Of a stretch of 64,000 bases of DNA, positions 1-25,523 are shown piece after piece. Numbering within the stretch: the first letter of the stretch is position 1; every line of letters starts with the position of its first letter. A program made the translations under genes and the position numbers. The notes under the pieces are model-generated. The model was not told the origin of the DNA. It worked only from the letters and a program-made list of their open reading frames with translations, and did no database searches. Origin of the DNA: an uncultured Prevotellaceae bacterium (GTDB taxonomy: Bacteria; Bacteroidota; Bacteroidia; Bacteroidales; UBA932); contig CAMVFZ010000008.1 of assembly GCA_947166905.1 (NCBI GenBank), positions 55,884 through 119,883 of the forward strand, written 5' to 3'.

Positions 1-2
1 CG

Positions 3-590
3 CATGGTGCATTGGGTAATGATCCGCTTCCTTCTTATATGACCTTGAACGGATCAAATATTACTACATACTTCCATCCCGGATTCTTCTCCGGTAACGG
101 GTATATCGACAAGGGTATCAGCGGTCAGAATACCACCCAGATGCGTGCTCGTTTTGAGAAAGACGTAGTCGCCCTTAATCCTAAGGTATTCGTGATTATG
201 GCTGGTACAAATGATATTGCCCAGGGCGTGTCCAATGACGATATTTTCAATAATATCGCGTACATGGCTTCCGAGGCAAAGACTCATGGAATGAAGGTGA
301 TTATCTGTTCAATTACCCCCAATAACCGCAATTACACTGGCGTGGGCTGGAAGAGCCAGTACATAGAGGCTCTCAATGAGCGTTTCCAGAATCTTTGCAC
401 CAGTGAGGGTTATGCTTATTGCGACTATTGGAGCTCATTGGTGGCACGAACAGGAGAAGCCGCAGTGTCTACTGACATCGACCATGGCCTGAAGGACGCT
501 TACAAGCTGTACGACGATCTTCATCCCGGCCCCGCTGCCTACACCGTTATGGAAGGCATCGTCAAGCCAATAATTGATTCATTACTGTAA
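3..590 (+). CDS. SGNH/GDSL hydrolase, 5'-truncated by the window edge
   Basis: Open frame continues upstream of the listed TTG start (HGALGNDPLPSY...). VIMAGTNDIA (block III-like GxND) and DLHPGPAAY (catalytic DxxH) motifs. Confidence 0.8.
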   Translation, partial: HGALGNDPLPSYMTLNGSNITTYFHPGFFSGNGYIDKGISGQNTTQMRARFEKDVVALNPKVFVIMAGTNDIAQGVSNDDIFNNIAYMASEAKTHGMKVIICSITPNNRNYTGVGWKSQYIEALNERFQNLCTSEGYAYCDYWSSLVARTGEAAVSTDIDHGLKDAYKLYDDLHPGPAAYTVMEGIVKPIIDSLL

Positions 591-776: not shown

Positions 777-3476
777 ATGAAAAAGATACTTTGCATATCA
801 ATGATTCTTTCTATGGCACTTCTCGCAGGTTGCCAGAAGGAGAATGCTGTTCAAGAGGAAGGCGATTCCAAAGGAAATACTCAGATATCAGGAAATAAAG
901 TAACCATTTCTGCATCCATTCCTAAGGAAGGACTTACAAAGGTTGCTTTTCAGGAAGTTGATAATGGAGGTGGAAAGATGCGCCTTACAAAACTCTCCTG
1001 GGAGTATACTGATGTGTTGACAGTCAACGGTAATGAGTTCACGGTACAGTCAGGCTCTATCTCCGCTGACGGATCAACCGCCACTTTTGTTGGCACTGAT
1101 CCCGGTGACGGCCCTTATAACATTGTACTCAGTTCTAAGATGCCTGCTTCTATTGCACAGCAGACGCAGCCGGCCGATGGTGACGCCGGGAATCTTGGAT
1201 ACAGCATATCAATTACCGGAGCAAATGATTATAAGAATGTTCAGTTCTCCAGTGAATGGGCATCTTCTCACGGATCCGCCACGTTGGCCGTTTCTTCTGT
1301 GCTGCAGCTTCGCGCTCTGCTTCCGGATGCGGTTGCAAGTGCTGTAAAGAAAGTGATATTCAAGAGTAGCAACAACGATGCATTTGGTACAGGTGTAAAT
1401 ACAATAACTGTCACCTTAACAACTGCCGGTACTGCAGGTGATGATAAGACACTTGATGTTTACGTTGCCCTTCCCGCAGGCTTGAATGTTACCCTTTCTG
1501 ATGATATGGATCTGCTGGTTCAGTTCCAGTGTGATGAAGATAAAGAGTATGACAAGTATACTGCATACAGGCAAATTGCAAACGGAACTAATTTTATCCG
1601 CGCCGGCTATACTCAGTACCTTGGCCTTGACTGTTCACAGATAGATAGTTTTGCGAATAAATCAACTGCAAATATCGGAGGGTCTACCAATCCATATTTG
1701 ATTGGTGACCAGCATCAGATGGCGGCAATAGCCTTGTCAACTGAAAAGAAGTACTATATACTTGTAGATGATATCGACATGACCGGGGTAACATGGTCAC
1801 CGCTGAATCCCACCAGCCCCTTTAATCAGTTGATTGATCTTGATGGTAATCACAAGACCATCAGCAAGCTTTCCGGAGGTGGATTGTTCTATGTTTTTAA
1901 AGGTTCTGCAAAGGATTTAACACTGGATCAATTTACTGTAAACAATGGCGCGCAGCGAGGCGCTTTTGCTCAGTTTATCCAAGGAACAGGGAACGTTATT
2001 ACGAATGTTGATGTTAGTAACAGTACGATACAGGCTGGAAATCAGGCCATGGGTGGACTGATAGGTAAAATCAATAGCGGCAGTACAGGAACACCTACTG
2101 CAACAATCACAAATTGTGATGTTACCAATACATCCGTTACTGGAAAAGCCAGCTATGGTACAGGTGGTTTAATAGGCCTTGTGGACTCAAGTGCAGATGT
2201 TACCATCAGCAATTGCACAGTCTCAAAGGTTGGCGAAGGCTCTGCAAGTGTCAATAATAATACCAATAATACCCATAATGTTGGTGGATTGATTGGGGCC
2301 GTTTCAAGTAATTCAACCATTTCGAACTGTGCCGTTACTAGCGTAACTGTTTCCGGAAAGGGAACTGTTGGCGGATTTGTAGGCAGTATTAGCAATGGTA
2401 CTTTCACCAATTGTACGACAACGGGAACAGCAACAGGAACATCTAATGTCGGTGGATTTGCCGGCCAAATCTCAGGTGGCAGCCTGTCTGGTACTAGAAC
2501 AAATAAAAACGCTGAAAGTACATGTATCGCCAAAGGGGATGTGACCGGTTCTGGCGACAATGTGGGAGGTTTTGTCGGCAATGCTACTGGCGGATCATTC
2601 ACTTGTTGCGATGCTACGGGAAAAGTTTCATCGGGAGGAAAATATGTTGGTGGATTTGTTGGCCTTTCAACGGGAAACTTAAATTGTCAACATTGTCGTT
2701 ACTGGGGAACAGAGGTTAAGACAACGTCAAATGAAGATGCTGTATGCCTTGGTGGTTTTTGCGGTGCAATAACGGGATCTTTTACAGGTACTATTAGAAA
2801 ATGCTGGGTGTCCCAGGGAAGCTCTGGTCTTGCTGTTAATTCAACAAATAAAAAAGCTCGTGTTGGTGGATTTATTGGTCAAATAGGAGCTGCCAGCGAT
2901 GAGGGGAATACCGGTACATTTACACAATGTAGAGCACATAAAGTTACAGTAACCGGAGGAATGGATACGGGAGGTTTTGTGGGCGTTTCTTACGTTAATA
3001 TCTCCCAATCATGTACAACCGGCGGCTCTGTGACATCAAATAATACATTTGTTGGTGGATTCGCGGGGTATCAGCAGTACAAAACAATAGACTACTGTTA
3101 TTCAACAAACAATGTTACCGGAGGATCAGGGAATAATAATTATGTAGGAGGAATGTTTGGTTATGCCGAGAGTGTTACAGTTTCATATTGCTATGTCGGT
3201 GGCGTAACGCTCTCCGGTAAAGAGCGGGGAAGCTTTATAGGTTCGGCAAAGAATGGAAGTCAGGATCATTCTATCTCTTGGATAAAAATAAAATGGATAG
3301 GAAGCAACAATGGTTCCTCAACAGATTCAACATGTCATCGCTATGCAGATTCGGATGATACTAATAGTCGTACCATTTACTATTGGGCAAATGAATATGG
3401 ATGGGGGAGTACCGGTATTTGGACAATTCAGACCGGAAATAATCCGACCATGGCTGAGACTGAAACAATCATGTAG
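777..3476 (+). CDS. Surface lipoprotein: N-terminal fimbrillin-like region plus many GLUG-type repeats
   Basis: Lipobox LLAGC followed by QKEN; repeated units such as NVGGFVGNATGGSFTCCDATGKVSSGGKYVGGFVGLSTGN. Confidence 0.75.
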   Translation: MKKILCISMILSMALLAGCQKENAVQEEGDSKGNTQISGNKVTISASIPKEGLTKVAFQEVDNGGGKMRLTKLSWEYTDVLTVNGNEFTVQSGSISADGSTATFVGTDPGDGPYNIVLSSKMPASIAQQTQPADGDAGNLGYSISITGANDYKNVQFSSEWASSHGSATLAVSSVLQLRALLPDAVASAVKKVIFKSSNNDAFGTGVNTITVTLTTAGTAGDDKTLDVYVALPAGLNVTLSDDMDLLVQFQCDEDKEYDKYTAYRQIANGTNFIRAGYTQYLGLDCSQIDSFANKSTANIGGSTNPYLIGDQHQMAAIALSTEKKYYILVDDIDMTGVTWSPLNPTSPFNQLIDLDGNHKTISKLSGGGLFYVFKGSAKDLTLDQFTVNNGAQRGAFAQFIQGTGNVITNVDVSNSTIQAGNQAMGGLIGKINSGSTGTPTATITNCDVTNTSVTGKASYGTGGLIGLVDSSADVTISNCTVSKVGEGSASVNNNTNNTHNVGGLIGAVSSNSTISNCAVTSVTVSGKGTVGGFVGSISNGTFTNCTTTGTATGTSNVGGFAGQISGGSLSGTRTNKNAESTCIAKGDVTGSGDNVGGFVGNATGGSFTCCDATGKVSSGGKYVGGFVGLSTGNLNCQHCRYWGTEVKTTSNEDAVCLGGFCGAITGSFTGTIRKCWVSQGSSGLAVNSTNKKARVGGFIGQIGAASDEGNTGTFTQCRAHKVTVTGGMDTGGFVGVSYVNISQSCTTGGSVTSNNTFVGGFAGYQQYKTIDYCYSTNNVTGGSGNNNYVGGMFGYAESVTVSYCYVGGVTLSGKERGSFIGSAKNGSQDHSISWIKIKWIGSNNGSSTDSTCHRYADSDDTNSRTIYYWANEYGWGSTGIWTIQTGNNPTMAETETIM

Positions 3477-3694: not shown

Positions 3695-5995
3695 ATGAAA
3701 AAGAATTCGATTTTAGCATTGGCCTTTGCTGCCACTCTTTCTCTCTTCGCATCCTGCGCAAAGGAAGATAATAATCCCGTAGAGGGACAGGGCAAGCAGA
3801 TTACAATTTCTGCCGCTTTCCCGGAGAACGCTACCAAGGTGGTATTTGTTGGCTCAAATGAAAAAGATCCTGTTTCGCTTACATGGGAGGCAGGAGACCA
3901 GATTACCGTAACTGCTACGGATAATCCTACCAATACTCAGACTTTTACTATTGCTAGTGGTGTTGGAACAAAGCAGGCAACTTTTACCGGAACAGCCTTG
4001 GCTGCCGCAGCATCCTATAAAATTACTTACGGAACAGCAGGTACATATGCCGAACAGACTCAGGCAGCAGATGGCGACGCCAGTCATGTGAAATACGTTG
4101 CTACCCTTAGCGGTGTAACCGACTATACAAATTTCACTTTCTCCAAAACATGGGCTACTGACAATGGCGCGACTTATACACCGTCTTCTGTGCTCCGTCT
4201 CAGAGCTCAGATTCCTAACAGTGATCCTAATGATTTCTTTGGAAAGATAAAAGCCGTTGTATTCAAGGCCAGCGCACCAATCTTTGCCGGCTCAAATGAG
4301 CTTAAGGTGAATATTACCAATTCTACAGATGATGCCGAACTGGACTATCTTACCATCTATGCGACTCTTCCCGGAGAGCAGGAAATAGCAGCTGGTACAA
4401 CCTTGTTGGTTGGTTTCCAGATGGACGCAGATAAGGCGTACAAGAAGTATACTGCTTATCGTGAGTTCAAAACCGATATGACCATTAAGGCCGGTCAGGT
4501 TAATACCATTGCTATTGATTGCATGAATATTTTTGCTTCTGCCGGTAAAGACGATGACGGTACTGCCGCGCATCCTTACCTCATTGCTGACCAGAACCAG
4601 ATGGATTATATTCATAGCCTGCTTTCTACCAGCACAAAGAAATACTTCAAGATGGTGGACGATGTGGATATGACAGGTGTGGCATGGACATCGCTAAATA
4701 ATGCCACTGGCTACAATAAAGAGATAGATTTCGATGGAAACAACAAAACCATATCCAATCTTTCTAGCAATTCTGGTGCTTATCCTAGTTTTGCCGGCGT
4801 TGCGTATGGTAACTATAAGAATGTTACATTCGACAAGGCTAATATTGATGGAGGTAATAACAATATCGGCGTTTTTGCCGGTTATATTGGTACTGTCGTG
4901 TCCAGCGAAAACAGGAATGCTACAGTAAGTGGAATAACCGTAAGCAATTCTACTGTTGTTGGAACCGCAACTCAAACCAACAGAAATACTGGTGGTTTCG
5001 CAGGGGTCGTAGGAGTTTCAGGTGCTACTATAACTGATTGCCATGTTACGGGGACAACGACTGTTTCTCAAAGTGGCACAACTTACTACAAGGGTTGTTG
5101 TGTTGGTGGTTTTATTGGGAATGTAAACTTGCCGGCGACTATCACTGGCTGTACTTCTCATGCTAATGTCCACAATAATCTCAGCTATTATACTGGTGGC
5201 TTTATCGGTCAAGTTGGAGCGGCTGTTAAGGTCGAAGTAAGTAATTGCGCTTTTTTGGGCGGTACAATTACAGCCGGTAGAAATTCTGTGGATAATTCGC
5301 CGGTTGGCGGTTTTATTGGCAGAGTTACATCTGGCGCTGGCTCCACCTTTACTAATTGCTATGTTGACGGCGCTCAGATTACTGCGACTAACTCTGGTCG
5401 TTGTGGTGGTTTCGTTGGTGATGGAGGAGATAAGGCAACAAAGAATACGTATACTTCTTGCTATGTAAAGAATTCAACTGTTTCCGGTGCTAAGAATTGC
5501 GGTGGTTTTGCGGGAACTCTTTATGGTGCAGCTAGTAAGTGCTATGTTGAATCCACCACTATAACGGCAAACAACGATAACAACGGTGGATTTGCTGGGT
5601 ATTTGGAGAACGGAACCGCAACTAACTGTTATGCATCTGCAACAGTAATCGGTGGCGCCCATGAGAATAATGGCGGTTTTGTTGGAAACGCAAGAAAAGG
5701 AGATAACGTGCCCGGAGAGATTACCTATTGCTATACAAATAGTACCGTTAGTGGCAGTGCTGCAAGCGTAGGTGCATTTATCGGTGGTGTTACAGCCGTT
5801 CCTAATTCTGTTACCAAGTGTATTGCTTGGAATGGCACTCAGGATTTCGTTGGCAGTGCCGGGTCGTTGGATATTACTACGGCTATTACAGGCAACTACA
5901 CCGGCACTTCCGGCACTATCAGTTCTCAGGCTACCACCCTTGGTTGGGACGATTCAGTTTGGGATCTTAGCGGATCAGTTCCAACCCTTAAATAA
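3695..5995 (+). CDS. Surface lipoprotein paralogous to 777..3476: fimbrillin-like region plus GLUG-type repeats
   Basis: Lipobox FASC followed by AKEDNN; repeated GGFxG...CxxxxTxxG units; same architecture as the preceding lipoprotein. Confidence 0.75.
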   Translation: MKKNSILALAFAATLSLFASCAKEDNNPVEGQGKQITISAAFPENATKVVFVGSNEKDPVSLTWEAGDQITVTATDNPTNTQTFTIASGVGTKQATFTGTALAAAASYKITYGTAGTYAEQTQAADGDASHVKYVATLSGVTDYTNFTFSKTWATDNGATYTPSSVLRLRAQIPNSDPNDFFGKIKAVVFKASAPIFAGSNELKVNITNSTDDAELDYLTIYATLPGEQEIAAGTTLLVGFQMDADKAYKKYTAYREFKTDMTIKAGQVNTIAIDCMNIFASAGKDDDGTAAHPYLIADQNQMDYIHSLLSTSTKKYFKMVDDVDMTGVAWTSLNNATGYNKEIDFDGNNKTISNLSSNSGAYPSFAGVAYGNYKNVTFDKANIDGGNNNIGVFAGYIGTVVSSENRNATVSGITVSNSTVVGTATQTNRNTGGFAGVVGVSGATITDCHVTGTTTVSQSGTTYYKGCCVGGFIGNVNLPATITGCTSHANVHNNLSYYTGGFIGQVGAAVKVEVSNCAFLGGTITAGRNSVDNSPVGGFIGRVTSGAGSTFTNCYVDGAQITATNSGRCGGFVGDGGDKATKNTYTSCYVKNSTVSGAKNCGGFAGTLYGAASKCYVESTTITANNDNNGGFAGYLENGTATNCYASATVIGGAHENNGGFVGNARKGDNVPGEITYCYTNSTVSGSAASVGAFIGGVTAVPNSVTKCIAWNGTQDFVGSAGSLDITTAITGNYTGTSGTISSQATTLGWDDSVWDLSGSVPTLK

Positions 5996-6086
5996 TCGCA
6001 ATCTAACCTAATTTATAAATATCTATTTGTGAGTTTTTGGGCTCTATACCTACTTTAATATAGACCCTATATAATACGGAAATCCT

Positions 6087-7184
6087 ATGAACCGCATAAT
6101 AGGCATATTAGTTAGTTTTTGTTTGGCTCTGGTTGTTGTACCCGGGAGGGCCCAACGCCAGGAGGAAGCCGGGTGTCGGTACGTATCGGCGGCGGAGTTG
6201 ACCATCACCGGAAAACTCTTCCCCGATACGCCCAACCCCTTCCATAGGGTAGACACCGTACAATTCAAAGGCTTTACGCCAGCAGAAAACATTCAGGTTC
6301 GGGAATCATCGGGCCTGGCAATTGCCTTCCGCACAAACAGCCCCTTCATTAGGCTTAATCCCCACTACGGATACATCACGCGCAGCGTGAACACTATGGG
6401 CATCGCCGTAAAAGGCTTTGACATGTATATCCGCAAAGACGGAAAATGGCTGTGGGCTGCGGCAGGAACCACTTTGGACGACGGTGACAAACCCTTCACC
6501 ATCATCCGTGACATGGACGGTCAGATGCACGAATGCCTTCTGTACCTGCCTCTCCTCAGTGAGCTCAACGGCCTGGAGATTGGCGTGGCGCAGGGGAGCG
6601 TAATAGAGGCCATGCCCAATCCTTTCAGGGGCAGGGTGGCAATCTTTGGCTCCAGCTTTACGCAGGGCATAAGCACCTCCCGCAGCGGAATGACCTACCC
6701 GGCGCAGTTTACTCGCGCCACCGGCATCCAGCTGCTAAGCCTTGGTTGCTCCGGCAATTGCAAACTACAGCCTTATTTTGCGGACGCACTAGCCGCAGCA
6801 CAGGTAGACGCCTTTATCTTTGACTCCTTCTCCAATCCAAGTCCGGAGCAGGTAAAGGAACGTCTTTTCCCCTTCATAGAGAAAATCCAGGCCGCCCATC
6901 CCGGCGTTCCCCTGATTTTCCAGAAGACCATCTACCGCGAAAAGCGCAACTTCAACCTGGGAGAAGATAAAAAGGAAGCGGCGCGTGCCCATATGGCCGA
7001 CAGCCTTATGAACATTGCCTGCAAGCGCTACAAAGACGTCTATTACATTAAAACCAATGCAACCGCGCCCTCCCGCGACACGTCGGTAGACGGCATCCAC
7101 CCGGGAGACTATGGTTATACACTCTGGGCCGAATCGGTGCAGAAGCGAATACTTAAAATTTTGAAGAAATACGGAATTAGATAA
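6087..7184 (+). CDS. Secreted SGNH/GDSL esterase with N-terminal GxDLY-like domain
   Basis: Signal peptide; FGSSFTQG nucleophile block; DGIHPGDYGYTLWA (DxxH) block; GFDMYIRKDGKWLWAAAG resembles the GxDLY domain. Confidence 0.75.
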   Translation: MNRIIGILVSFCLALVVVPGRAQRQEEAGCRYVSAAELTITGKLFPDTPNPFHRVDTVQFKGFTPAENIQVRESSGLAIAFRTNSPFIRLNPHYGYITRSVNTMGIAVKGFDMYIRKDGKWLWAAAGTTLDDGDKPFTIIRDMDGQMHECLLYLPLLSELNGLEIGVAQGSVIEAMPNPFRGRVAIFGSSFTQGISTSRSGMTYPAQFTRATGIQLLSLGCSGNCKLQPYFADALAAAQVDAFIFDSFSNPSPEQVKERLFPFIEKIQAAHPGVPLIFQKTIYREKRNFNLGEDKKEAARAHMADSLMNIACKRYKDVYYIKTNATAPSRDTSVDGIHPGDYGYTLWAESVQKRILKILKKYGIR

Positions 7185-7185
7185 T

Positions 7186-9333
7186 ATGAAGCGAACGATA
7201 AGTATAATTGCAATGCTCCTGCTCCTTTGCGGAAGCATAGTCGCCCAGCCCTCCGGACCGGGTTGGACAAACACTGTTGTGGCCGATGGTATCCGTTATT
7301 ACTCATATACAGGTGTAGAGGCCATTTCCGGCGCGCCCCAGCGCATCTTCGTGATTGACTGGGACACCACCAACCCGTCTTACGCCCTGCGTTACACATG
7401 GTCACCTAACCGTAGCGCAACATCGGACGCCTTCCGCCTGAACAACGCCGTCGTTGCCATGAATGCGGCATACGAGCCGGAGTCCGTAGTGATAAAGGAG
7501 CAGGGACACTACTATTCCTGCATGCCCCTTGACTCTGTGATGAAGACTCCGGTACCCAACTGGAAGAGCGAGGGCGCCGTTTATGTAGACGGCACCGGCC
7601 GCAACATAAAGATAGCCTTCGACGGTAAAGGCAAGTCCATTGCGGAGCAGAGGGCATATTACGCCTCAGTTCCCTGGGAGAACATATTCACCAGCTCTCC
7701 CATGCTGATCTATGACTATGAGCCGGTTGGCGCGTCATTCGTAGACAGCACCCTTACTGCAGAGCAGCTGGCTACTTACAACTACGAGGATCCCATACGC
7801 CATCAAGGCGTCCGCCATCCCCGTTGCGCAGTGGCCCTTACGGCGGACAAGCACTTTATCATGATTACTGTGGACGGCCGCAAGCCTGACATCAGCGAGG
7901 GTATGACCGCCCGCGAATTCACCCGCTTCATAGAGCGCCACTTCCATCCCCAGTACGCGCTGAACATGGACGGCGGCGGCTCAGCCACTATGTGCGTCCG
8001 CGGCCAGGGAGACACCCTTACCCACGTAGTGAACTATCCTTCCGGCAATAAGAAGAATACCCATAGGGGAGAGCGCAAGCTCTATTCACATTTTGTAATC
8101 GTTGAGGTTGCCGATGTCCCCAAGGCCCCCAAGCCCGATCGTAAGCTTGCCGCAGGCCTTGATATGGTGTACGACTTCTCTCCCAAGGCTTCTACACCTG
8201 CCCCCAAGGGCTATGAACCGGTATACATCGGCCATTATGGCCGCCACGGTTCCCGCTATGCTTATACAGCTAAAACCTATACTATTCCTCTTGAAATGCT
8301 GCGTGAAGGTGCGCAGCAGAACAACCTAACCCCCCGTGGCCAGAAGTTGCTGGCCGATCTGGAAGCCTTCTACAAGGAAGGCCAGTACAAAGTGGGAGAC
8401 CTTACCCCCCTGGGATGGGAACAGCACGCCTACATTGCCAGGACCATGGTAAAGTCTTTCCCCACAGCGTTCAAGGCCGGCAGCCGCGTGGACGCATGCT
8501 CATCGGCATCTGTACGAGCAATGATGAGTATGGCCTCCTGCTGCGTGTCCATTGCAAAAGAGGCCCCCGCTGCCGATATCTACGAGCATCAGGGCATACT
8601 GGACATCCAGGCAACCAGACCGAACACGGGTAAAAATCCTTTCCGTTACGAGGGCCCTGCCTCTTTCTTTCCCTTCCCGGAAAGCTCTGAACAATTCTTC
8701 CAGCGTAAATTCCCTGATTGGAAGAAGCCTCTTGCCAGACTGTTCAACGACCCGGAGGCAGGGCTGGGCGGCAGGAGCGTCTACGACGTCTTCTTCCACT
8801 ACTACATGTTTGTGGTGGGTATGAACAGCCTGCCGGAGCAGGATAAGATTGAAGTAAGCGACCTGCTTACCGACGACGAACTTGCAATCCTTTGGGAGAC
8901 AGACAACTACGAGCGTTTCCGCGAGTACATCGCCTACCGCACGCCCTGCTCGTCCATCGTGGACGACATTATTGCCAAGGCCGATGCGCGCCTGGCCGGC
9001 GGCGAGCGTGGGGCAGACCTTCGCTTTGGTCACGACCACGTAGTTATGTCACTGTTGATGATAATGGATATTGACAACTTCGGGTACATCCCCGCATCGG
9101 CCGACGACCTGGTGAACACCTTCAAGAGTTACCGCTCGCTGATGGCTACCAATATCCAGTTTGTATTCTACGTTCCTGTAAAGGACAAATCGGCCCCGGT
9201 GCTGGTTAAAGTCCTGCATAACGGAGAAGAATCACGCCTTGGCAATCTGACTCCCGTAAAGGGCCCCTATTATGAATGGACTGCGGTAAAGGACTACCTC
9301 CGCGCCCGTACAAACCTTTTTGTTAACCGTTAA
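7186..9333 (+). CDS. Fusion: NAGPA-like phosphodiester glycosidase (N-terminal) + histidine acid phosphatase (C-terminal)
   Basis: NMDGGGSATM is a NAGPA-family signature. IGHYGRHGSRY (RHGxR) and RFGHDHVV (HD) are histidine acid phosphatase signatures. All lie in one uninterrupted 715-codon ORF. Confidence 0.8.
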   Translation: MKRTISIIAMLLLLCGSIVAQPSGPGWTNTVVADGIRYYSYTGVEAISGAPQRIFVIDWDTTNPSYALRYTWSPNRSATSDAFRLNNAVVAMNAAYEPESVVIKEQGHYYSCMPLDSVMKTPVPNWKSEGAVYVDGTGRNIKIAFDGKGKSIAEQRAYYASVPWENIFTSSPMLIYDYEPVGASFVDSTLTAEQLATYNYEDPIRHQGVRHPRCAVALTADKHFIMITVDGRKPDISEGMTAREFTRFIERHFHPQYALNMDGGGSATMCVRGQGDTLTHVVNYPSGNKKNTHRGERKLYSHFVIVEVADVPKAPKPDRKLAAGLDMVYDFSPKASTPAPKGYEPVYIGHYGRHGSRYAYTAKTYTIPLEMLREGAQQNNLTPRGQKLLADLEAFYKEGQYKVGDLTPLGWEQHAYIARTMVKSFPTAFKAGSRVDACSSASVRAMMSMASCCVSIAKEAPAADIYEHQGILDIQATRPNTGKNPFRYEGPASFFPFPESSEQFFQRKFPDWKKPLARLFNDPEAGLGGRSVYDVFFHYYMFVVGMNSLPEQDKIEVSDLLTDDELAILWETDNYERFREYIAYRTPCSSIVDDIIAKADARLAGGERGADLRFGHDHVVMSLLMIMDIDNFGYIPASADDLVNTFKSYRSLMATNIQFVFYVPVKDKSAPVLVKVLHNGEESRLGNLTPVKGPYYEWTAVKDYLRARTNLFVNR

Positions 9334-9338
9334 AAAAA

Positions 9339-10718
9339 ATGAGTATTTTAAATTTTTTCAAGGCAGAGTACGCTCCCGTATCACCTGCTGTCCCTGCAGA
9401 CAAGGTAGACAAGACTTACAAGCGTCTAAGAATGCAGGCATTCCTTGCAGGTACCTTCGGCTATGCCCTTTATTATGTTTGCCGCCTTTCAATGGGCGTA
9501 ATGAAGCAGCCTCTTATTGACGAGGGCCTGCTTAATGCAACCCAGCTGGGTATCATCGGAGCCTGCCTTTACTGGACTTATGCAATAGCAAAACTGATTA
9601 ACGGCTTCCTTGCCGACAGCGCCAACATCAAGCGCTTCATGGCTGCAGGACTTACCGTTTCAGTTTCTATGAATCTAATAATGGGCATCCTGGGCGTGAG
9701 CGCTATGAACGGAAACATAGCCAATTCTGTGCTGTTCGTGGCGTTTGCCGTTTGCTGGGCCATTAACGGTTGGGCCCAATCTATGGGCGCTCCGCCCGCC
9801 ATTATTGCTTTGTCCCGATGGTTCCCGCTCCGCATCAGGGGAACCTTCTACGGATTCTTCAGTGCTTCGCACAACATTGGCGAGGGCCTGTCCTTCGTCT
9901 TTGTAAGCGCACTGGTTGCCGCTTCCGGTTGGAAGTGGGGCTTCTTTGGAGCTGCATTGGCCGGCTTGCTGGGAGTAATCATTATTCTCCTGTTCCTGCA
10001 CAACAGCACAGAGTGCAAGGGACTTCCCAGCATCGAAACCCTTGCCGGTGAGCCTCAGCCCAAGGACGTTCCGGCTTCTGAGAAGCGCGCAGAAACCCGC
10101 AGGCTTCAGGCCCAGGTAATCAAGAACCCCGGAGTTTGGATTCTTGCCCTGGCCAGCGCCTTCATGTACATCAGCCGCTATGCCATCAACGAATGGGGTG
10201 TTATCTTCCTTCAGGAGACCCACGGTTACAGCCTTGCAGAGGCCGGAACCATAGTGGGTATCAACCCTATCTTCGGTGTTCTTGGTACAGTTCTTTCCGG
10301 CTGGCTTTCTGACTCTCTTTTTAAAGGTGATCGCAAATATCCGGCATTCGTTGCCGGAATCCTCGAGGTACTCGCCCTGTCGCTATTCCTCTTCGGTGGC
10401 CCTCAAAAGTGGGTTGCGGTCGTTTCCATGATACTCTTCGGCATAGCAATCGGCGTGCTTATCTGCTTTGTAGGCGGACTTATGGCCATTGATCTGGTTC
10501 CTCGCAAAGCGACAGGCGCAGCCTTGGGTATTATGGGCATGGCCTCCTATGGCGCCGTTGGTTTGCAAAACGTTGTCACCGGTCTTTTGCTTGACAATAA
10601 TGTCAAAGACGGTGTGCACGATTTCACTTATGTTAGCTGGTTCTGGCTTGGCGCCGCAGTCATCGCTGTCCTTCTGCCAATGCTCAACTGGAAACGCAAA
10701 CCCCAGGAGATCGAATAG
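9339..10718 (+). CDS. MFS organophosphate:phosphate antiporter-like transporter (GlpT/UhpT family)
   Basis: About 12 hydrophobic segments; GYALYYVCRLSM and WAINGWAQSMGAPPAIIALSRWFP are typical of GlpT/UhpT members. Confidence 0.75.
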   Translation: MSILNFFKAEYAPVSPAVPADKVDKTYKRLRMQAFLAGTFGYALYYVCRLSMGVMKQPLIDEGLLNATQLGIIGACLYWTYAIAKLINGFLADSANIKRFMAAGLTVSVSMNLIMGILGVSAMNGNIANSVLFVAFAVCWAINGWAQSMGAPPAIIALSRWFPLRIRGTFYGFFSASHNIGEGLSFVFVSALVAASGWKWGFFGAALAGLLGVIIILLFLHNSTECKGLPSIETLAGEPQPKDVPASEKRAETRRLQAQVIKNPGVWILALASAFMYISRYAINEWGVIFLQETHGYSLAEAGTIVGINPIFGVLGTVLSGWLSDSLFKGDRKYPAFVAGILEVLALSLFLFGGPQKWVAVVSMILFGIAIGVLICFVGGLMAIDLVPRKATGAALGIMGMASYGAVGLQNVVTGLLLDNNVKDGVHDFTYVSWFWLGAAVIAVLLPMLNWKRKPQEIE

Positions 10719-12864: not shown

Positions 12865-13557
12865 ATGTACGAAGACGTCAGGACGATTGCCTTTGATGCC
12901 GATGACACCCTGTGGGAAAACGAAACCCTGTTCAGGGAGGCGGAACGCCAGTGGGCAGAGGTTATGAAGGATTACGGCAGTTTGGAAGAACTGTCGGCCA
13001 TACTCTACAAGAGGGAGGCAGAGAACATGGAAGACCTTGGCTTCGGCGCCAAGCCATATCTCATCTCCGTTATGGAAACCTCCGTCGCCCTTGCCGGTGA
13101 CAAGCTCACCGGGCCGATGGTAGCCAAAATCATCGCCGCCGGACGTCAGATAATGCGCAACCCGGCAACTCCGCTGCCGGGAGTAAAAGAAGCCCTGCAG
13201 GCCATCAGGGACAAGAAAAAATACCGGATGGTAATGCTCACCAAAGGCGACCTTCTGGACCAGGAGCACAAAATTGCGCGCAGCGGACTGGGCTGTTTCT
13301 TCGACCGTACGGTCATCACATCCAACAAAAGCAAAAAGGAATATCTGGAACTTTGCCAGGCAGAAGGCATAACCCCGGAAAACCTTCTTATGGTTGGAAA
13401 TTCATTCAAGTCGGATATTGCTCCCGTGCTGGAGCTTGGGGGATGGGGCGCTTATGTCCCGTTTAAGGTAATTTGGGAACACGAGAAGACAGAGGAATAC
13501 GAACATCCACGCCTGCTGAAGCTGTCCGCCTTGGGAGAGTTGCTTTGCTGGCTTTAA
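12865..13557 (+). CDS. HAD-family hydrolase
   Basis: FDADDTLWENE motif I, MLTKGD motif II, GNSFKSDI motif III. ATG at 12865 preferred over the TTG at 12844. Confidence 0.8.
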   Translation: MYEDVRTIAFDADDTLWENETLFREAERQWAEVMKDYGSLEELSAILYKREAENMEDLGFGAKPYLISVMETSVALAGDKLTGPMVAKIIAAGRQIMRNPATPLPGVKEALQAIRDKKKYRMVMLTKGDLLDQEHKIARSGLGCFFDRTVITSNKSKKEYLELCQAEGITPENLLMVGNSFKSDIAPVLELGGWGAYVPFKVIWEHEKTEEYEHPRLLKLSALGELLCWL

Positions 13558-14171
13558 TAAGGAAGTTTGCCGTAAAGGCAGAAGAGAAGGGTGGCGATAG
13601 GGAGGTAATCCTTCAGGGAAGAGCGCATCGCAGAAAGCACTCTTTGGATTTCCCGTTTCACTTTTCTTGTAGAAACGCCGTACTTGTCTGCAATCTCGTC
13701 GTACGTAAGGTCTTCAAAGCGGCTGGAATAGAAAATATCCCTGGTCATCTTGGGCATGCTCTTCATAAAGTCCTCGAAGATGTGCCTTACCTCTTCTTTA
13801 AACAATATGGACATATCCTGGCCGTCCAGGACGTCAATCTCTGCCATCAGCGCCCTGTAGGCGTTGGTCTGCATCTTCTGCTCTATGCGCATCCTTGTGG
13901 CCTGGTCCCTGAGGAAGTTCAGGCTGCGGTTCTTTACAGCGGTAAGAAGATAGGCCTCCGGCGGAGAATTCAGCTGAATCTCATTGCGCTTGTCCCAAAA
14001 ACTTGCAAAACAATCGGAAACAATGTCTTCTGCGGCAGATCTGTCGTGGATATAAGAGAAGGAGATATTTACGAACGGCTCACGGAACCTTGAAAACAAG
14101 GTTGCAAACTCCTGCGCAGAAACGACAGGGGCTGTGGTTGCATCGGTAGATATGGTGTTCTGGATATCCAT
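13554..14171 (-). CDS. ECF sigma-70 factor (FecI-like)
   Basis: Region 2 FSYIHDRSAAEDIVSDCFASFW; region 4 LTYDEIADKYGVSTRKVKREIQRVL. Confidence 0.85.
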   Translation of the reverse strand: MDIQNTISTDATTAPVVSAQEFATLFSRFREPFVNISFSYIHDRSAAEDIVSDCFASFWDKRNEIQLNSPPEAYLLTAVKNRSLNFLRDQATRMRIEQKMQTNAYRALMAEIDVLDGQDMSILFKEEVRHIFEDFMKSMPKMTRDIFYSSRFEDLTYDEIADKYGVSTRKVKREIQRVLSAMRSSLKDYLPIATLLFCLYGKLPY

Positions 14172-14313
14172 AATTTCTTACGCGTACAAAGTTAGCCTTC
14201 TTTAACGAAAAACAAGGGGAAAAGAAAATTTTAAGAAAAAAATTGAAACATTTTAATAAAAGTGGGGTCCATCACCCGAAGTTGTGTGTCTATTAAATGT
14301 TAAAAACGATAAA

Positions 14314-15261
14314 ATGGATTCTTATTTACTCTTAAAATACTTTAAAGGATCGGCCTCTCCCTCAGAAAAGGAGCAGGTCTACAGTTGGCTTGCAAATGAC
14401 ACCGACGGCTCCAGGAAAGAGAGCTATCGTCAGATGCATGACATCTACAACGGAATGGCGCTTTACGGCGACGGCGGAGCCTCTTATATGAAGCGCCGCT
14501 CACTGCGCCGCCGCATCATCGCCGGAATAACCGCCATTGCCGCATCCGTAGCGATAGTATTCGGTCTTATCACCATAGAAAGAAACAGGGCAATTGATTT
14601 ACTTGCCTCTAAAACTGAAACCCTGTATGTTCCCGCCGGGGAAAGCATGAAGTTGACGCTGGACGATGGCAGCTCTATATGGTTGAATGGCGATACGGAG
14701 ATAGAGCTGCCGGCAGTATTTGGCCGCAAGGACCGTAAGATTACGGTTCACCGCGGAGAAATACTGCTGGACGTTGTCAAAGACGAAGCCCGTCCCTTCT
14801 ACGTAGAAACCTTCACATCTACCGTAAGGGTACTCGGTACCAAGTTCGAGGTGCTGGTAGACGAAGACAGGTCTTTCTGCTCCGTCATCCTGCTCAGGGG
14901 TAAGGTAGAAGCCGTAGACCACAACACCGGCGACGTAATCGGTATGGTACCGGATGACCTTCTTTGCTTTGAAGGCGGCAACGTTACCAAGTCGCGCATC
15001 AAGAACCACGATGCCATTGATTGCTGGACAGAGGGACTTATCGACATTTCCGATGAGCCGTTTGACCGTCTTATGCGCAGGTTCGAGAAAGCCTTCAACA
15101 TTAATATAATTATTGACAGGCCCACCCTTCCCGCCATCAGCTATACAAGGGGTAAGATCCGTATTTCAGACGGCATAGACCACGCACTTTCAGTGCTCCA
15201 GCTTGTGTCTGACTTTACGTACGAGAGAGACTACAACACAAACACCATTACTATTAAATAA
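14314..15261 (+). CDS. FecR-like anti-sigma factor
   Basis: N-terminal cytoplasmic region, one TM segment, FecR-like TLDDGSSIWLNGDTEIELP...GEILLDVVKDEARPFYVETFTSTVRVLGTKFEV. Confidence 0.85.
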   Translation: MDSYLLLKYFKGSASPSEKEQVYSWLANDTDGSRKESYRQMHDIYNGMALYGDGGASYMKRRSLRRRIIAGITAIAASVAIVFGLITIERNRAIDLLASKTETLYVPAGESMKLTLDDGSSIWLNGDTEIELPAVFGRKDRKITVHRGEILLDVVKDEARPFYVETFTSTVRVLGTKFEVLVDEDRSFCSVILLRGKVEAVDHNTGDVIGMVPDDLLCFEGGNVTKSRIKNHDAIDCWTEGLIDISDEPFDRLMRRFEKAFNINIIIDRPTLPAISYTRGKIRISDGIDHALSVLQLVSDFTYERDYNTNTITIK

Positions 15262-15282
15262 TTAATCCACAAAACCCTAATC

Positions 15283-18200
15283 ATGCGTAAGCTCTTAATC
15301 AGCAAAACCTGGAAACGGGCCCTGTTCGCATTGATGGTATCATTGTGTCTGGTAATCCCCGCAGGGAACGCCCAGGCCCAGGATGCCGGCAAGATCACTC
15401 TCAAGATGAGTGGTACCCTTGAGCAGGTGCTGGACGCAGTAGAGCGTCAATCCAGGTATCTGTTCTTGAACGACCAGGTAGACTTGAGCATAAAGGTAAG
15501 TGTAGACGTTCAGGGCAAACCTGTAACAGAGGTACTCGACCAGATGCTTAAAGGAACCGGAATCAAGTACAAGATTACTGAAACAAACATTATCCTTTCC
15601 AACAAGGCTCTGTCAGACGACAGAATCAAGGAAATCACAAACGGTCAGCAGCGCAAGTCCAACACTGTAAGCGGCCGTATCATGGACCAGAAAGGCGAGC
15701 CCGTCATCGGCGGTGCCGTTATGATAAAAGGAACTTCCATCGGTGGCAGCACAGACATCGATGGTAATTTCTCTTTTATCCTGCCGGAAGGCAGCGAAAG
15801 CCGCATCGTAGAGGTTTCCAGCCTTGGTTATACAACTGTTGAATTCCCTCTTTCCGGCCAGCGCATCTTCAACATCACCCTTGTAGAAGACTCAGAAGTC
15901 CTTGAGGGAACCGTTGTTACCGCCCTCGGTATCCGCAGGGCCCAGAAAGCGCTTTCCTACAATGTTCAGGAGGTTAAGAGCAGCGACATCCTCTCAAATA
16001 AAGACGCAAACTTCATCAATTCTCTTAGCGGTAAAGCCGCCGGCTTGGTAATCAACGCTTCTTCTGCCGGAGTGGGTGGTGCTACAAAAGCCGTAATGCG
16101 TGGATCCAAGTCTATCACCAAGTCTTCCAATGCACTTTACGTGATAGACGGTGTGCCGATGTCTGCCATCAACCGTGATGCAAGCACGGAGTTCGGTTCC
16201 AATGGCTACACAGACCCTATCGCCGACCTTAACCCGGAGGATATCGAGTCCATGACCGTCCTGACCGGTGCAGCCGCTGCCGCACTTTACGGACAGGAGG
16301 GCGCAAACGGTGCCATCGTCATTACAACCAAGAAAGGCGCTGCAGGCAAGACAACCCTTACCATTGCAAGCAATACAGAAATCTCTAACGTTACCTTCCT
16401 GCCCAAGTTCCAGGATACCTACGGAACAGGTGACCTCCTTTCTTCCGAGGGCTCTTCCGTTTACAGCTGGGGTAGAAAGCTCAACGACTATACATACATG
16501 GGATATGACCCCAAGAGCGATTACTTCAAGACCGGAGTAACCACAACAGAGAGCATATCCTTCTCTACCGGAACGGACAAGAACCAGACCTACCTTTCTA
16601 TGGCTGCAATCAACGCCAACGGTACCGTTCCCAACAACGCCTACAACAGGTACAACTTCTCTTTCCGCAACACTGCCTCCTTCCTGGACGACAAGCTCAC
16701 CCTTGACCTGTCCTTCCAGTATGTAAAGCAGAACGACCGCAACATGATCAACCAGGGTCTTTACAACAACCCTCTGGTTGGTGCATATCTCTTCCCCCGC
16801 GGCGACTCATGGGAGGATGTGTCCATGTACGAAAGATGGAGCAGCGACCGCGGCATTTACACCCAGTACTGGCCCGCAGGTGACGGCGGTATCGTGATGC
16901 AGAACCCTTACTGGATCAACTATCGCGACCTCCGTACCAACAAGAAAGATAGATACATGGCACAGGCCAGCCTTAGCTGGAAGGTTGCAGACTGGATTAC
17001 GGCAACCGGCCGCGTGCGTATCGACAATACGGACACCAAGTACGAAGAGCGTTACTACGCTACTACAAACAACCTCCTTACCGGCGGCTCGGACAAAGGT
17101 TACTATGGCTTGCAGGAGATTAAAGACAAGTCTACCTATGCCGATGCAATGGCCGATATCCACAAAACCATCGGCGAGCACTGGAACCTCCAGGCCAATA
17201 TCGGTGGTATCATTTCTGATTCAAGAAACGACTGGTCTTCAATTGCCGGAGGTATCGGCAACGGAACCATCGGTGTAGAGAATATTCCTAACGTGTTCAA
17301 CGTTTTTGCCATCGGCGCCGCAAGTAACGCACAGGGCGGTTATCACGACCAGACCCAGAGCGTGTTCGCAAGCGTCGAGCTCGGATACCGCAGCGCATGG
17401 TACCTTACCCTCACTGCCCGTAACGACTGGGATTCCCGTTTGTTCGGCCCCGGCAGTACCAAAAGCTCTTTCTTCTATCCGTCAGTTGGTGTTTCAGGCG
17501 TGCTTTCTCAAGCTCTGACACTTCCCAAATTCGTGGAATTCCTTAAGGTACGCGGCTCTTACGCACAGGTTGGTACTTCTTACCAGAGGTGGATCGCAAA
17601 TCCTCTCCACTCCTGGGACAGCAGCCAGCAGGCGTGGAAAACCCAGACGGCTTATCCGGTTTCCAACCTTAAGCCGGAAATGACTGCTTCTTGGGAGGCA
17701 GGTATCCAGACCCGTATAGCCGGAGGCTTCTCCGTAGACCTGTCCTGGTATCTGACCAATACCAAGAACCAGACCTTCAACCCTGGTATTTCATCCGGTT
17801 CCGGTTACTCTGACATCTACATCCAGTCAGGTAACGTACGCAACACTGGTATCGAGCTCCAGCTTGGTTACAACCACACCTGGGGCAGCTTCGGATGGAA
17901 TTCCGTTTACACTTTCTCTACCAACAGCAACAAGATCATCAGCCTTGCGGCCGATGTCACCAACCCTGTTACCGGAGAAAAGTTCAGCGTATCACAGCTT
18001 AACATGGGTGGCCTTGGAAACGCCCGCTTCATCCTTCAGGAAGGCGGTTCCCTTGGCGACATCTACTCCCGTGCAGACCTTAAGCGTGACAACAGGGGCA
18101 ACATCTATGTAACCGAGACCGGAGCCATCGCCACCGAGGCCTATTCAGACTTCTCCAAGTACATTAAGCTTGGAAGCGTACTGCCCAAGGCCAACATGGC

Positions 18201-18681
18201 ATGGAGGAACGAGTTCAAGTTCTGCGGCTTCTCTGCCTCTGCAATGATCCAGGCCCGTCTTGGCGGCATCGTATTCTCAAGGACCCAGGCCATGCTGGAC
18301 CGCTTTGGAGTATCCGAGGCAACCGCAATCGCCCGTGACAACGGCGGCGTAGTCATCAACGGTGGCGACCTTATCGATGCCAGCAAGTGGTACACAGCCA
18401 TCGGCGGCGGTGACACCGTGCCCCAGTACTACACATACGACGCAACCAACGTTCGCCTGAGCGAGGTTGCCCTGGGCTACACCTTCCCCCGCAAGATGCT
18501 CTGGAACCTCTTTGACCTTACCCTTCAGGTAACGGGCAAGAACCTTCTTATGATTTACTGCAAAGCTCCCTTCGACCCGGAAGCAACAGCAACTACCACC
18601 AACAATTACTACCAGGGAATCGACTACTTCATGATGCCCGGTATGCGCACCTACGGATTCAACGTCCGTCTTAACTTCTAA
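15283..18681 (+). CDS. SusC/RagA-type TonB-dependent transporter with N-terminal STN signalling domain
   Basis: STN-like ITLKMSGTLEQVLDAVERQS, carboxypeptidase-like repeat VSGRIMDQKGEPVIGGAVMIKGT, plug VIDGVPM...AAALYGQEGANGAIVITTKKG, complete C-terminus TYGFNVRLNF. Confidence 0.95.
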   Translation: MRKLLISKTWKRALFALMVSLCLVIPAGNAQAQDAGKITLKMSGTLEQVLDAVERQSRYLFLNDQVDLSIKVSVDVQGKPVTEVLDQMLKGTGIKYKITETNIILSNKALSDDRIKEITNGQQRKSNTVSGRIMDQKGEPVIGGAVMIKGTSIGGSTDIDGNFSFILPEGSESRIVEVSSLGYTTVEFPLSGQRIFNITLVEDSEVLEGTVVTALGIRRAQKALSYNVQEVKSSDILSNKDANFINSLSGKAAGLVINASSAGVGGATKAVMRGSKSITKSSNALYVIDGVPMSAINRDASTEFGSNGYTDPIADLNPEDIESMTVLTGAAAAALYGQEGANGAIVITTKKGAAGKTTLTIASNTEISNVTFLPKFQDTYGTGDLLSSEGSSVYSWGRKLNDYTYMGYDPKSDYFKTGVTTTESISFSTGTDKNQTYLSMAAINANGTVPNNAYNRYNFSFRNTASFLDDKLTLDLSFQYVKQNDRNMINQGLYNNPLVGAYLFPRGDSWEDVSMYERWSSDRGIYTQYWPAGDGGIVMQNPYWINYRDLRTNKKDRYMAQASLSWKVADWITATGRVRIDNTDTKYEERYYATTNNLLTGGSDKGYYGLQEIKDKSTYADAMADIHKTIGEHWNLQANIGGIISDSRNDWSSIAGGIGNGTIGVENIPNVFNVFAIGAASNAQGGYHDQTQSVFASVELGYRSAWYLTLTARNDWDSRLFGPGSTKSSFFYPSVGVSGVLSQALTLPKFVEFLKVRGSYAQVGTSYQRWIANPLHSWDSSQQAWKTQTAYPVSNLKPEMTASWEAGIQTRIAGGFSVDLSWYLTNTKNQTFNPGISSGSGYSDIYIQSGNVRNTGIELQLGYNHTWGSFGWNSVYTFSTNSNKIISLAADVTNPVTGEKFSVSQLNMGGLGNARFILQEGGSLGDIYSRADLKRDNRGNIYVTETGAIATEAYSDFSKYIKLGSVLPKANMAWRNEFKFCGFSASAMIQARLGGIVFSRTQAMLDRFGVSEATAIARDNGGVVINGGDLIDASKWYTAIGGGDTVPQYYTYDATNVRLSEVALGYTFPRKMLWNLFDLTLQVTGKNLLMIYCKAPFDPEATATTTNNYYQGIDYFMMPGMRTYGFNVRLNF

Positions 18682-18693
18682 GGAGGACTGAAT

Positions 18694-20280
18694 ATGAAAA
18701 AGATATTTGTAAAAGGTTTAGTGCTGGTTTCCGCTGCCATCGTAATGGCGTCCTGCACAAAGAACTTCGAGCAGTATAATTCCAACCCTTACGGGGTTGA
18801 CGGAGACCAGATGCTTCGTGACGGTTATGCCCTCAGGGCAGCTATGACCGGCATGGCCAGCGCCGTGATCTCTACCGATGTAAACACAACCCAGTTTACA
18901 GAGTGTCTTCTTGGCGGCCCGATGGCTGGTTATCTAGCAGATTCCAACCAGGGCTTCAGAAACACCATTTCCAACTATAATCCTACGGACAACTGGACCA
19001 ACGTCCTCCTTTCCAGCGACAGGATTATCCCTACATTCTTTGCAAACTACGGCGACATCTCCCGTCTTACCAGCAACGAGGTAATCCTCTCCATTGCCGA
19101 TATTATCAAGGTTGCCGTCCTGCACCGTGTTGCCGATACCTACGGCCCCATCCCTTATACCCAGATTGGCCAGGGTGGCAAGATCCAGGTGCCTTACGAC
19201 AGCCAGGGCGACGCCTACAAGGCAATGCTCGCTGACCTTGACAAGGCCATCGACGTGCTTACCGCCAACCGTTCCAACAACATCAACGCTTCTGCCGATG
19301 TGGTTTATCACGGTGACGTCCAGAAGTGGCTCAAGTTTGCCAACTCCCTTAAGCTCCGTCTTGCAATGCGTATTGTTTACGCCGATGCTACTACGGCCCG
19401 CAAGGCTGCAGAGGAAGTTGCTGCACACGAGGTTGGCGCCTTCTCTTCCAACGCAGACAACGCCCTCTACGACAACTTCAACGCCAACGCAAAGAATCCT
19501 TTCTATGTAGTTCAGGTAGAATACAACGGCGGCGACTCAATGGCTGCTGCCGACATCATCGCCTACATGAACGGTTACAACGATCCCCGCCGCGCCGCTT
19601 ACTTTGGCAAGAGCCAGTTCGACGGCTTTGACTTCGTAGGCCTGCGCCACGGTATCGTAATGCCCGCCAACGACGTGATGCACAAATACTCCACCATCAA
19701 CGTAAACATGGATACTCCTTACGTTTGGATGAACGCCGCAGAGGTTGCCTTCCTTAAGGCAGAGGCAGTGGCTGTATTCGGCTTCAATATGGGCGGCAGC
19801 GCCAAGGACTTCTACGAGCAGGGCATCCGCCTGTCCTTCGAGCAGTGGGGTGTTAGCGGTGCAGAGGCCTACCTTACCGATGCCACAAGCAAACCGGCCG
19901 CCTATGTAGATCCTATCGGCACAAACAGCTACAACGGTGTACTGTCCAACATGACCATCGCCTGGGACGACAATGCTACCGTCGATGCAAAGCAGGAGAA
20001 GATCATGATCCAGAAGTGGATTGCCAACTGGCTTCTTGGAAACGAGAGCTGGGCCGACATCCGCCGTACCGGATATCCCCACATCATCCCCGCAACCGCA
20101 GAGGGTAACAAGTCCAACGGCCTTGTAGATTCCAACTTCGGTGCCCGTCGAATGAAGTATCCTTCAGACGAGTACATCAACAACGGTGACAACCTCCGTA
20201 CAGCCGTAAGCACCATGCTTGGCGGCCCCGACGAGATGGCAACCCGTACATGGTTCGACTGCAATCCCAAAGTGAAATAG
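18694..20280 (+). CDS. SusD/RagB-like outer-membrane lipoprotein
   Basis: Lipobox MASC; follows SusC; RMKYPSDEYINNGDNLRTAVS...PDEMATRTWFDCNP C-terminal SusD pattern. Confidence 0.85.
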   Translation: MKKIFVKGLVLVSAAIVMASCTKNFEQYNSNPYGVDGDQMLRDGYALRAAMTGMASAVISTDVNTTQFTECLLGGPMAGYLADSNQGFRNTISNYNPTDNWTNVLLSSDRIIPTFFANYGDISRLTSNEVILSIADIIKVAVLHRVADTYGPIPYTQIGQGGKIQVPYDSQGDAYKAMLADLDKAIDVLTANRSNNINASADVVYHGDVQKWLKFANSLKLRLAMRIVYADATTARKAAEEVAAHEVGAFSSNADNALYDNFNANAKNPFYVVQVEYNGGDSMAAADIIAYMNGYNDPRRAAYFGKSQFDGFDFVGLRHGIVMPANDVMHKYSTINVNMDTPYVWMNAAEVAFLKAEAVAVFGFNMGGSAKDFYEQGIRLSFEQWGVSGAEAYLTDATSKPAAYVDPIGTNSYNGVLSNMTIAWDDNATVDAKQEKIMIQKWIANWLLGNESWADIRRTGYPHIIPATAEGNKSNGLVDSNFGARRMKYPSDEYINNGDNLRTAVSTMLGGPDEMATRTWFDCNPKVK

Positions 20281-20291
20281 GAGGAAAACAG

Positions 20292-21353
20292 ATGAAGAAC
20301 ATTTTTAAATATATAGTTATTCTCGCAGCCTGTGCGCTTGCATTCCAGGCTTGCGACAAATGGACTGACGCAGAGCCTGTAGAGGTCGTATACAAGGACC
20401 TCAAGAGCAAGAATCCTGAATTGTGGGCCAAATACATGGAGTCTATCCGCAATTACCACAATACAGACCATCAGGTTCTCATCGCCAAGTTCGACAACAA
20501 GGCCACTACGCCCGAGGGCCGCGGAGAGCATATCAACTGCCTGCCGGACAGCGTAGACTACGTTATCCTTAACAACGCCGACAAGCTTAACGACGTAATC
20601 GCAGCAGAGATGCAGGAGATTCTCTCAGAGAAGAACATCCCCACTCTTATGAACGTAAGCCTTGTGGCCATGATCAAGGAGTATAACACCATGCTGGCCG
20701 ATGAGGCCGAGTCCAAGGACCCCGAGTCAGAGGACGAGACCCTTGGTGTAGACACCCCGGAGCGCTTTGCCTCATGGATTGGAATCCGTGTGAAGACAGA
20801 ACTGGAGATTGCCGACAAGTACAACTACAGCGGCATCAACGTTATCTTCGAGGGCAAGAATCCCGCTTCTATGACCGACGCCCAGAAAGAAGAGGCTATC
20901 ACCCGTCAGCAGGCCATGTTCTCTGGCATCAACGATTGGATATCCGCCCACCAGAAGGCCCTTGTCTTCTTTGAGGGTTCTCCCAAGAACGTGCTTGTAG
21001 AGACAGCCGCTGTGACATCGGCAAAATACATCATTGTAACGGCGGAGAGTGCCAGCAACGAGTCTTCCCTCTCTTATGCCATCAACAATGTTCTTGCTGA
21101 CTTTGTCCCTTCTGACCGCTTTGTGATTGGCGTGACAGCAGTGGATATCACTGACCCCACCAACACCAACGGAAGCTTCGGCAGCAAGTCTGCCATTGTG
21201 GGAGCTGCAGAGTGGAGCGCACAGCCTACTACCAAATACGGCAAGAAGGGCGTTTGCGTCAACCATGCCCAGTTCGACTACTACGACATCACCAACGTTT
21301 ATTCCCAGATAAACAAGGCGATTTCCATTATGAATCCTTCACCTGTCAAATAA
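20292..21353 (+). CDS. GH18-like lipoprotein with degraded active site; putative surface glycan-binding protein
   Basis: Lipobox FQAC followed by DKWTDAE; GH18-like barrel, but the catalytic-motif position reads SGINVIFE. Start placed at ATG 20292. Confidence 0.65.
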   Translation: MKNIFKYIVILAACALAFQACDKWTDAEPVEVVYKDLKSKNPELWAKYMESIRNYHNTDHQVLIAKFDNKATTPEGRGEHINCLPDSVDYVILNNADKLNDVIAAEMQEILSEKNIPTLMNVSLVAMIKEYNTMLADEAESKDPESEDETLGVDTPERFASWIGIRVKTELEIADKYNYSGINVIFEGKNPASMTDAQKEEAITRQQAMFSGINDWISAHQKALVFFEGSPKNVLVETAAVTSAKYIIVTAESASNESSLSYAINNVLADFVPSDRFVIGVTAVDITDPTNTNGSFGSKSAIVGAAEWSAQPTTKYGKKGVCVNHAQFDYYDITNVYSQINKAISIMNPSPVK

Positions 21354-21365
21354 GGAGACGAGTAT

Positions 21366-22544: not shown

Positions 22545-22562
22545 TAATAGGAGAAATCGACA

Positions 22563-23963: not shown

Positions 23964-23967
23964 GCGT

Positions 23968-25512: not shown

Positions 25513-25523
25513 TACTGACGGAA

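Follow-up and report, generated by a model that had tools for sequence, protein, structure and literature searches.

Recurrent fusion of a predicted NAGPA-type phosphodiester glycosidase with a predicted histidine acid phosphatase in PUL-like loci of rumen-type Bacteroidales

Why should a bacterium join a phosphodiester glycosidase and an acid phosphatase in a single polypeptide? The question is raised by a 715-aa protein encoded in a stretch of 64,000 nt, here called the window, from an uncultured Prevotellaceae bacterium (Bacteroidales; UBA932; GCA_947166905.1, CAMVFZ010000008.1:55,884-119,883, forward). The protein is predicted to be secreted and consists of a signal peptide, a NAGPA domain (PF09992), a short linker and a branch-2 histidine acid phosphatase (HAP) domain. 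Its reading frame starts with ATG and has no internal stop codon. A preliminary description had claimed that one ORF carries the NAGPA motif followed by the HAP motifs, and all of them, NMDGGGSATM, RHGSR and HD, do lie in this single frame. The features of the gene and its surroundings are the following.

1..590, + strand: 3′ end of a 1233-aa GLUG lipoprotein gene with a C-terminal SGNH/GDSL hydrolase domain, beginning upstream of the window (L036:12773-16474)
777..3476, + strand: GLUG-repeat surface lipoprotein, 899 aa (Pfam Glug, E 4.8e-12)
3695..5995, + strand: GLUG-repeat surface lipoprotein, 766 aa (Pfam Glug; lipobox-like start LFASC)
6087..7184, + strand: secreted SGNH/GDSL esterase with a GxDLY N-terminal domain (PF14606, PF14607, PF13472), 1 bp before the fusion gene
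7186..9333, + strand: NAGPA-HAP fusion protein, 715 aa, signal peptide without lipobox
7240..8106, + strand: NAGPA (phosphodiester glycosidase) domain, aa 19-307 (HMM boundaries; PF09992; fold match to 3ohg and 6pku)
7963..7992, + strand: NMDGGGSATM motif, aa 260-269 (DGGGS in 57 of 57 fusions)
8134..9324, + strand: histidine acid phosphatase domain, aa 317-713 (HMM boundaries; 7r5y and BtMinpp matches)
8242..8256, + strand: RHGSR catalytic motif, aa 353-357 (RHG in 56 of 57 fusions)
9031..9036, + strand: HD proton-donor motif, aa 616-617 (HD in 57 of 57 fusions)
9339..10718, + strand: MFS transporter of the organophosphate:phosphate antiporter (OPA; GlpT/UhpT/PgtP) family (TIGR00881, E 2e-63; glpT, E 9e-60), 5 bp after the fusion gene
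L179:15292-18537, same direction as the fusion unit: SusC (38% to the SusC of L091)
from L179:18537, same strand as SusC and the fusion unit: SusD

Although the draft window genome comprises 29 contigs, an artefact of misassembly, frameshift or gene calling is extremely improbable. Many other contigs carry the same architecture, with 56-79% identity, and the reversed domain order occurs elsewhere, which excludes the frameshift or misassembly that the preliminary description had named as a refutation of the directly seen fusion. When a genome collection was scanned with NAGPA domains, 78 loci were obtained. Their titles name Bacteroidales, Bacteroidia or Rikenellaceae throughout, and the predominant sources are rumen, reticulum, omasum, abomasum and horse gut. 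A search for domains in this set, extended by loci of related genomes, detected 25 NAGPA-HAP (N-H) and 40 HAP-NAGPA (H-N) ORFs. After removal of duplicate contigs and partial ORFs, 23 N-H and 34 H-N proteins remained, i.e. 57 full-length fusions spread over different contigs of Bacteroidales MAGs, with rumen predominating. The domain search proposed earlier has been answered by 22 full-length N-H and 34 reversed proteins on contigs other than that of the window. In one locus (L055), both orders are present as adjacent genes. Of 300 sampled genomes of the window genus, 14 had a one-frame match along the NAGPA-HAP query; by our reading of the match table, HAP and then NAGPA were matched within a single frame of about 700-800 aa in many more. 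Among 294 Bacteroidales genomes, fusions were confined to this genus, and genomes outside it showed only solo HAPs at E below 1e-20. A plasmid- or virus-borne element was rejected as the carrier, as neither a plasmid record covering 80% of the fusion protein nor a matching viral contig was found. A reversed fusion is also encoded at a second locus of the window genome (L037:7276-9369, − strand, contig C3), behind SusC, SusD, GLUG and NAGPA genes; its NAGPA domain belongs to a divergent subtype.

The N-terminal half of the window protein matches the Pfam NAGPA model with 75.5 bits (cut-off 25; E 7.7e-21). In a fold search, this part was aligned with 3ohg (BACOVA_00430 from Bacteroides ovatus) and with 6pku, the guinea pig NAGPA or mannose-6-phosphate uncovering enzyme (UCE), at target TM-scores of 0.70 and 0.69, respectively (Foldseek probability 1.00 in both cases). 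The core residues, namely the Arg of RTAV, DGR/DGQ and NxDGGGS, align with vertebrate NAGPA and are near-invariant across the fusions. The relationship to the solved structures thus comprises the Pfam domain, the DGGGS core and the predicted fold, whereas identity in the fold alignments is only about 13-16%. As a secreted bacterial protein joined to a phosphatase, the window enzyme also differs from these known enzymes. The UCE reaction leaves a phosphomonoester (PMC12024695), and such a product falls into the substrate class of HAPs. UDP-GlcNAc has served as a surrogate substrate of UCE (PMC12024695). Bacterial members of the NAGPA family may, however, act on other substrates.

The C-terminal half matches PDB entry 7r5y, a Prevotella MINPP, at E 2.3e-37 and BtMinpp (4fdt) at E about 1e-23 (aa 318-708), and its predicted fold reaches target-normalised TM-scores of 0.77-0.80 with MINPP structures. 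The isolated domain scores only 20.7 bits against Pfam His_Phos_2 (PF00328; cut-off 23.6; E 3.1e-4), so that the phosphatase is missed if Pfam is used alone; the clade I H-N relative in L098 exceeds the cut-off with 36.5 bits. The study of BtMinpp (PMC3969271) assigns the role of nucleophile to His in RHGxRxP; as proton donor, it names Asp in HD for phytases and Glu in HAE for MINPPs. The HAE tripeptide and a PMAAN motif characterise the MINPP subfamily (PMC9432691; for HAE also PMC3969271). The fusions share with the MINPP or branch-2 histidine phosphatases the fold and the RHGxR nucleophile motif. The PMAAN position gives a mixed picture: most members have a PMAAN-like motif, in the form PMAAN in 17, PMGAN in 14 and PMATN in 7, and the others have further variants or no such motif; the window protein has LMATN. 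They differ from BtMinpp and 7r5y in the NAGPA partner and in the heptapeptide, which lacks the final Pro (RHGSRYA in the window protein; RHGSRYA, RHGSRYL, RHGSRFA or RHGARYC in the family). Moreover, they carry HD instead of HAE, which is found in none of the 57. The only fusion without RHG is N-terminally truncated. As HD and never HAE is present, the fusions combine a proton donor of the phytase/acid-phosphatase type with a MINPP-like scaffold. About ten His_Phos_2 matches are present in the 2.1 Mb window genome, among them a solo secreted HAP within the window (50534-51787, − strand).

The two halves have probably met more than once. In quick trees with SH-aLRT support only, the fused HAP domains fall in three places: clade I is made up solely of H-N proteins and sits among solo HAPs from other families, clade II comprises L037 and L055, and clade III contains both orders. 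Grouping of clades I and III against the solo HAPs was rejected (p-AU 1.9e-5), as was a single clade of all H-N proteins (p 1.3e-5). In the NAGPA tree, monophyly of N-H was rejected (p 0.012) and that of H-N was not (p 0.118). As the HAP trees reject one fused lineage, NAGPA was probably joined to HAPs repeatedly and in both orders, and at least three HAP lineages seem to have been recruited as partners. The simplest reading would be repeated joining, at least one change of order and some splits, as in L067 and L069, where NAGPA and HAP are separate genes. One fusion with later swapping of the HAP part would give similar trees. Either history, repeated joining or HAP replacement, would speak for the two activities belonging together.

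An AlphaFold2 model of the window protein, built from 22 homologues (mean pLDDT 79, pTM 0.62), contains one part matching MINPP structures and another matching 3ohg and other NAGPA structures, and the same two folds are seen when a relative with reversed domain order is modelled (pLDDT 84). The mutual placement of the domains is of low confidence in the models (pTM 0.62) and thus lends no support to substrate channelling.

The genomic context resembles a polysaccharide utilization locus. A unit on one strand extends from the start of SusC (C8:39291) to the end of the OPA gene (window position 10718; C8:39291-66601) in the order SusC, SusD, GLUG, GLUG, NAGPA, GLUG-NAGPA, GLUG-SGNH, GLUG, GLUG, SGNH, NAGPA-HAP, OPA. 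Like SusCD PULs of Bacteroidota, it has SusC and SusD together with surface lipoproteins, secreted enzymes and an inner-membrane importer, all encoded in the same direction. In contrast to those PULs, its enzymatic core is made up of phosphodiester glycosidases, esterases and phosphatases rather than of classical glycoside hydrolases, and the importer is of the organophosphate type. This transporter matches GlpT (1pw4) at E 6e-47 without reaching NCBIfam equivalog cut-offs, and its Arg/Arg/His residues align with the conserved phosphate-binding positions of GlpT. The arrangement SusC-SusD-GLUG-GLUG-NAGPA-SGNH followed by the fusion recurs, for instance in L118, and most complete loci have a relative of the 777..3476 GLUG protein beside the fusion or beside a NAGPA. 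In L069, SusC, SusD, GLUG, GLUG, NAGPA, SGNH, NAGPA, OPA, HAP and GH20 stand in one row as separate genes. Other neighbours of fusions are Exo_endo_phos (EEP) lipoproteins, GDPD and GH20; a PDB sequence search with the EEP neighbour gave no match. Several fusions, e.g. in L041, L068, L075 and L107, lie outside a recognisable SusCD/GLUG context. Upstream of the window and on the same strand, L036:9420-12551 and L036:12773-16474 encode GLUG surface lipoproteins with C-terminal NAGPA or SGNH hydrolase domains, which are additional fusions from the same parts. Genes for DUF6377 proteins, candidate regulators, are divergent from SusC (L179:13418-15076 and L182:4080-5732) and occur near SusC at several similar loci.

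A lipobox, scored by a simple rule, is missing from 23 of 23 N-H and 32 of 34 H-N fusions and is present in the SGNH and SusD proteins and in almost every EEP or GLUG protein. Solo NAGPAs are called lipoproteins in 28 of 50 cases, and many of the remaining 22 have a Cys near the expected place. By this rule, the fusions would be soluble secreted proteins, and the GLUG, SGNH, EEP and SusD proteins together with those 28 solo NAGPAs would be lipoproteins. Fusions devoid of a lipobox among lipoprotein partners would fit trimming at the surface, import by SusCD and finishing in the periplasm.

Fusion, motifs, signal types, gene order and recurrence are read from the sequence, and from them we infer both activities, their coupling, compartment, step order and substrate. 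The fusion is probably a periplasmic two-step enzyme of a PUL-type locus for phosphodiester-linked glycans. GLUG proteins, lipoprotein NAGPAs and SGNH esterases would bind and trim the substrate at the cell surface, and SusCD would carry phosphodiester-linked glycan fragments into the periplasm. There, the NAGPA domain would hydrolyse the glycosyl C1-O-P bond to a free sugar and a phosphomonoester, which the HAP domain would dephosphorylate, His354 forming a phosphohistidine intermediate and Asp617 donating the proton. Released sugar or glycerol phosphate might be taken up by the adjoining GlpT/UhpT-family antiporter. On a repeating glycosyl-1-phosphate polymer, both steps would alternate and consume the chain from its end, which would account for frequent fusion in either order. 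The domain calls of the preliminary description and its idea that the diester and then the monoester is cleaved find support in the operon context, in the conserved catalytic motifs and in the fact that several HAP lineages have recurrently been fused, in both orders; none of the substrates named there (lysosomal N-glycan, fungal phosphomannan, teichoic-type polymers) is established.

Some observations count against this two-step reading. An organophosphate importer next to a phosphatase that destroys organophosphates is partly redundant, and several fusions lie outside the SusCD/GLUG context. Co-expression and co-secretion rather than consecutive action could also explain why the two domains are fused. 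A different role would follow if the HAP half were, like a phytase, an inositol polyphosphate phosphatase, so that the fusion simply bundled two phosphate-scavenging activities with different substrates. Its nearest solved structures, Prevotella MINPP 7r5y (inositol hexakis ligand) and BtMinpp, agree with such a role, Arg183 of BtMinpp (for its role see PMC3969271) is aligned to Arg478 of the window protein, and 7r5y itself has GHD in this alignment. Nevertheless, we regard it as unlikely, since the MINPP-marking HAE is replaced throughout, the phosphatase is tied to NAGPA and SusCD/GLUG glycan machinery, and three HAP lineages are joined to one partner family. Phytase as a simple label for the HAP half appears inappropriate by the HAE test.

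For the two-step enzyme, two groups of substrates deserve consideration. With mannose-phosphodiester N-glycans or phosphomannan (GlcNAc-P-Man, Man-P-Man) of fungi, protists or host lysosomal-type glycoproteins, NAGPA would yield Man-6-P glycans and HAP mannose. In the window genome, two GH92 genes, phosphomannose isomerase (ManA) and GH130 lie upstream of the locus, and an ECF-linked N-glycan PUL with SusCD and GH18 (BT1044-like) follows downstream. In the sister genome G531 these modules also flank the locus, with their positions swapped. The window genome contains six GH92 matches. Yet window species and sister represent one lineage and thus one observation, and the window genome has no GH76 above cut-off. 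The flanks of about 12-20 kb (mostly both sides) in 14 of 15 other genomes are devoid of GH92, GH130, ManA and the GH18 PUL; the remaining one has a GH92 14 kb away. With six GH92 in 2.1 Mb, about one chance match is expected among these 15 genomes. Mannose-phosphate substrates seem rather unlikely. Mannosidases are absent from the family-wide fusion neighbours, and mannose/N-glycan genes next to the locus are confined to the window species and its sister. An N-glycan supercluster as a family-wide feature was rejected, being absent from the 15 other genomes with wider flanks except for that lone GH92. Gram-positive teichoic-type or other glycosyl-1-phosphate polymers are a possible, still doubtful target. 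SGNH esterases as recurrent neighbours would suit ester substituents, a GDPD-family glycerophosphodiesterase adjoins the fusion in L040, L066 and L121, GH20 is present in L056, L069 and L118, a GlpT-like transporter is at the locus, and most fusions come from the rumen, presumably rich in Gram-positive bacteria. On the other hand, a minority of the loci have GDPD or GH20, host-glycan loci commonly contain SGNH and GH20 as well, and a direct tie to any defined polymer is lacking. The N-glycan-type PUL of the window (13554-26687) comprises an ECF sigma factor, a putative anti-sigma factor and SusCD/GH18 (BT1044-like) genes; in G531 it lies on the opposite side of the phosphodiester locus at 67-93% identity.

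NAGPA domains fused to other phospho- or cell-surface enzyme domains are known from other bacteria, namely in ShfP-family and TelC/lipocone proteins (PMC11488536, PMC12419801). The window protein resembles these in having such a partner; in the available parts of these reports, the partners are calcineurin-like or TelC domains and no HAP partner is described. In the open-access literature searched, we found neither a NAGPA-HAP fusion nor a NAGPA-centred PUL described, nor any catabolic locus for sugar-phosphate-sugar bonds in Bacteroidota. Novelty would lie in the recurrent architecture and the locus type, the enzyme families themselves being known. Tentatively, the loci might represent an undescribed class of utilisation locus by which rumen-type Bacteroidales degrade phosphodiester-linked glycans; their fused exo-depolymerase would have been invented repeatedly and would alternate both activities along a glycosyl-1-phosphate chain. 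Recurrent fusion in both orders makes consecutive action a strong and testable prediction. If it holds true, gut Bacteroidales own a dedicated route for eating sugar-phosphate-sugar linkages, and the fused enzymes would be one-pot reagents that uncover and then remove phosphate on GlcNAc-P-Man glycans, or tools for degrading glycosyl-1-phosphate polymers. A calcineurin-like/GDPD composite protein is also encoded in the window genome, its gene directly adjoining a GH92 gene (L181:7013-8821 and 4993-7059).
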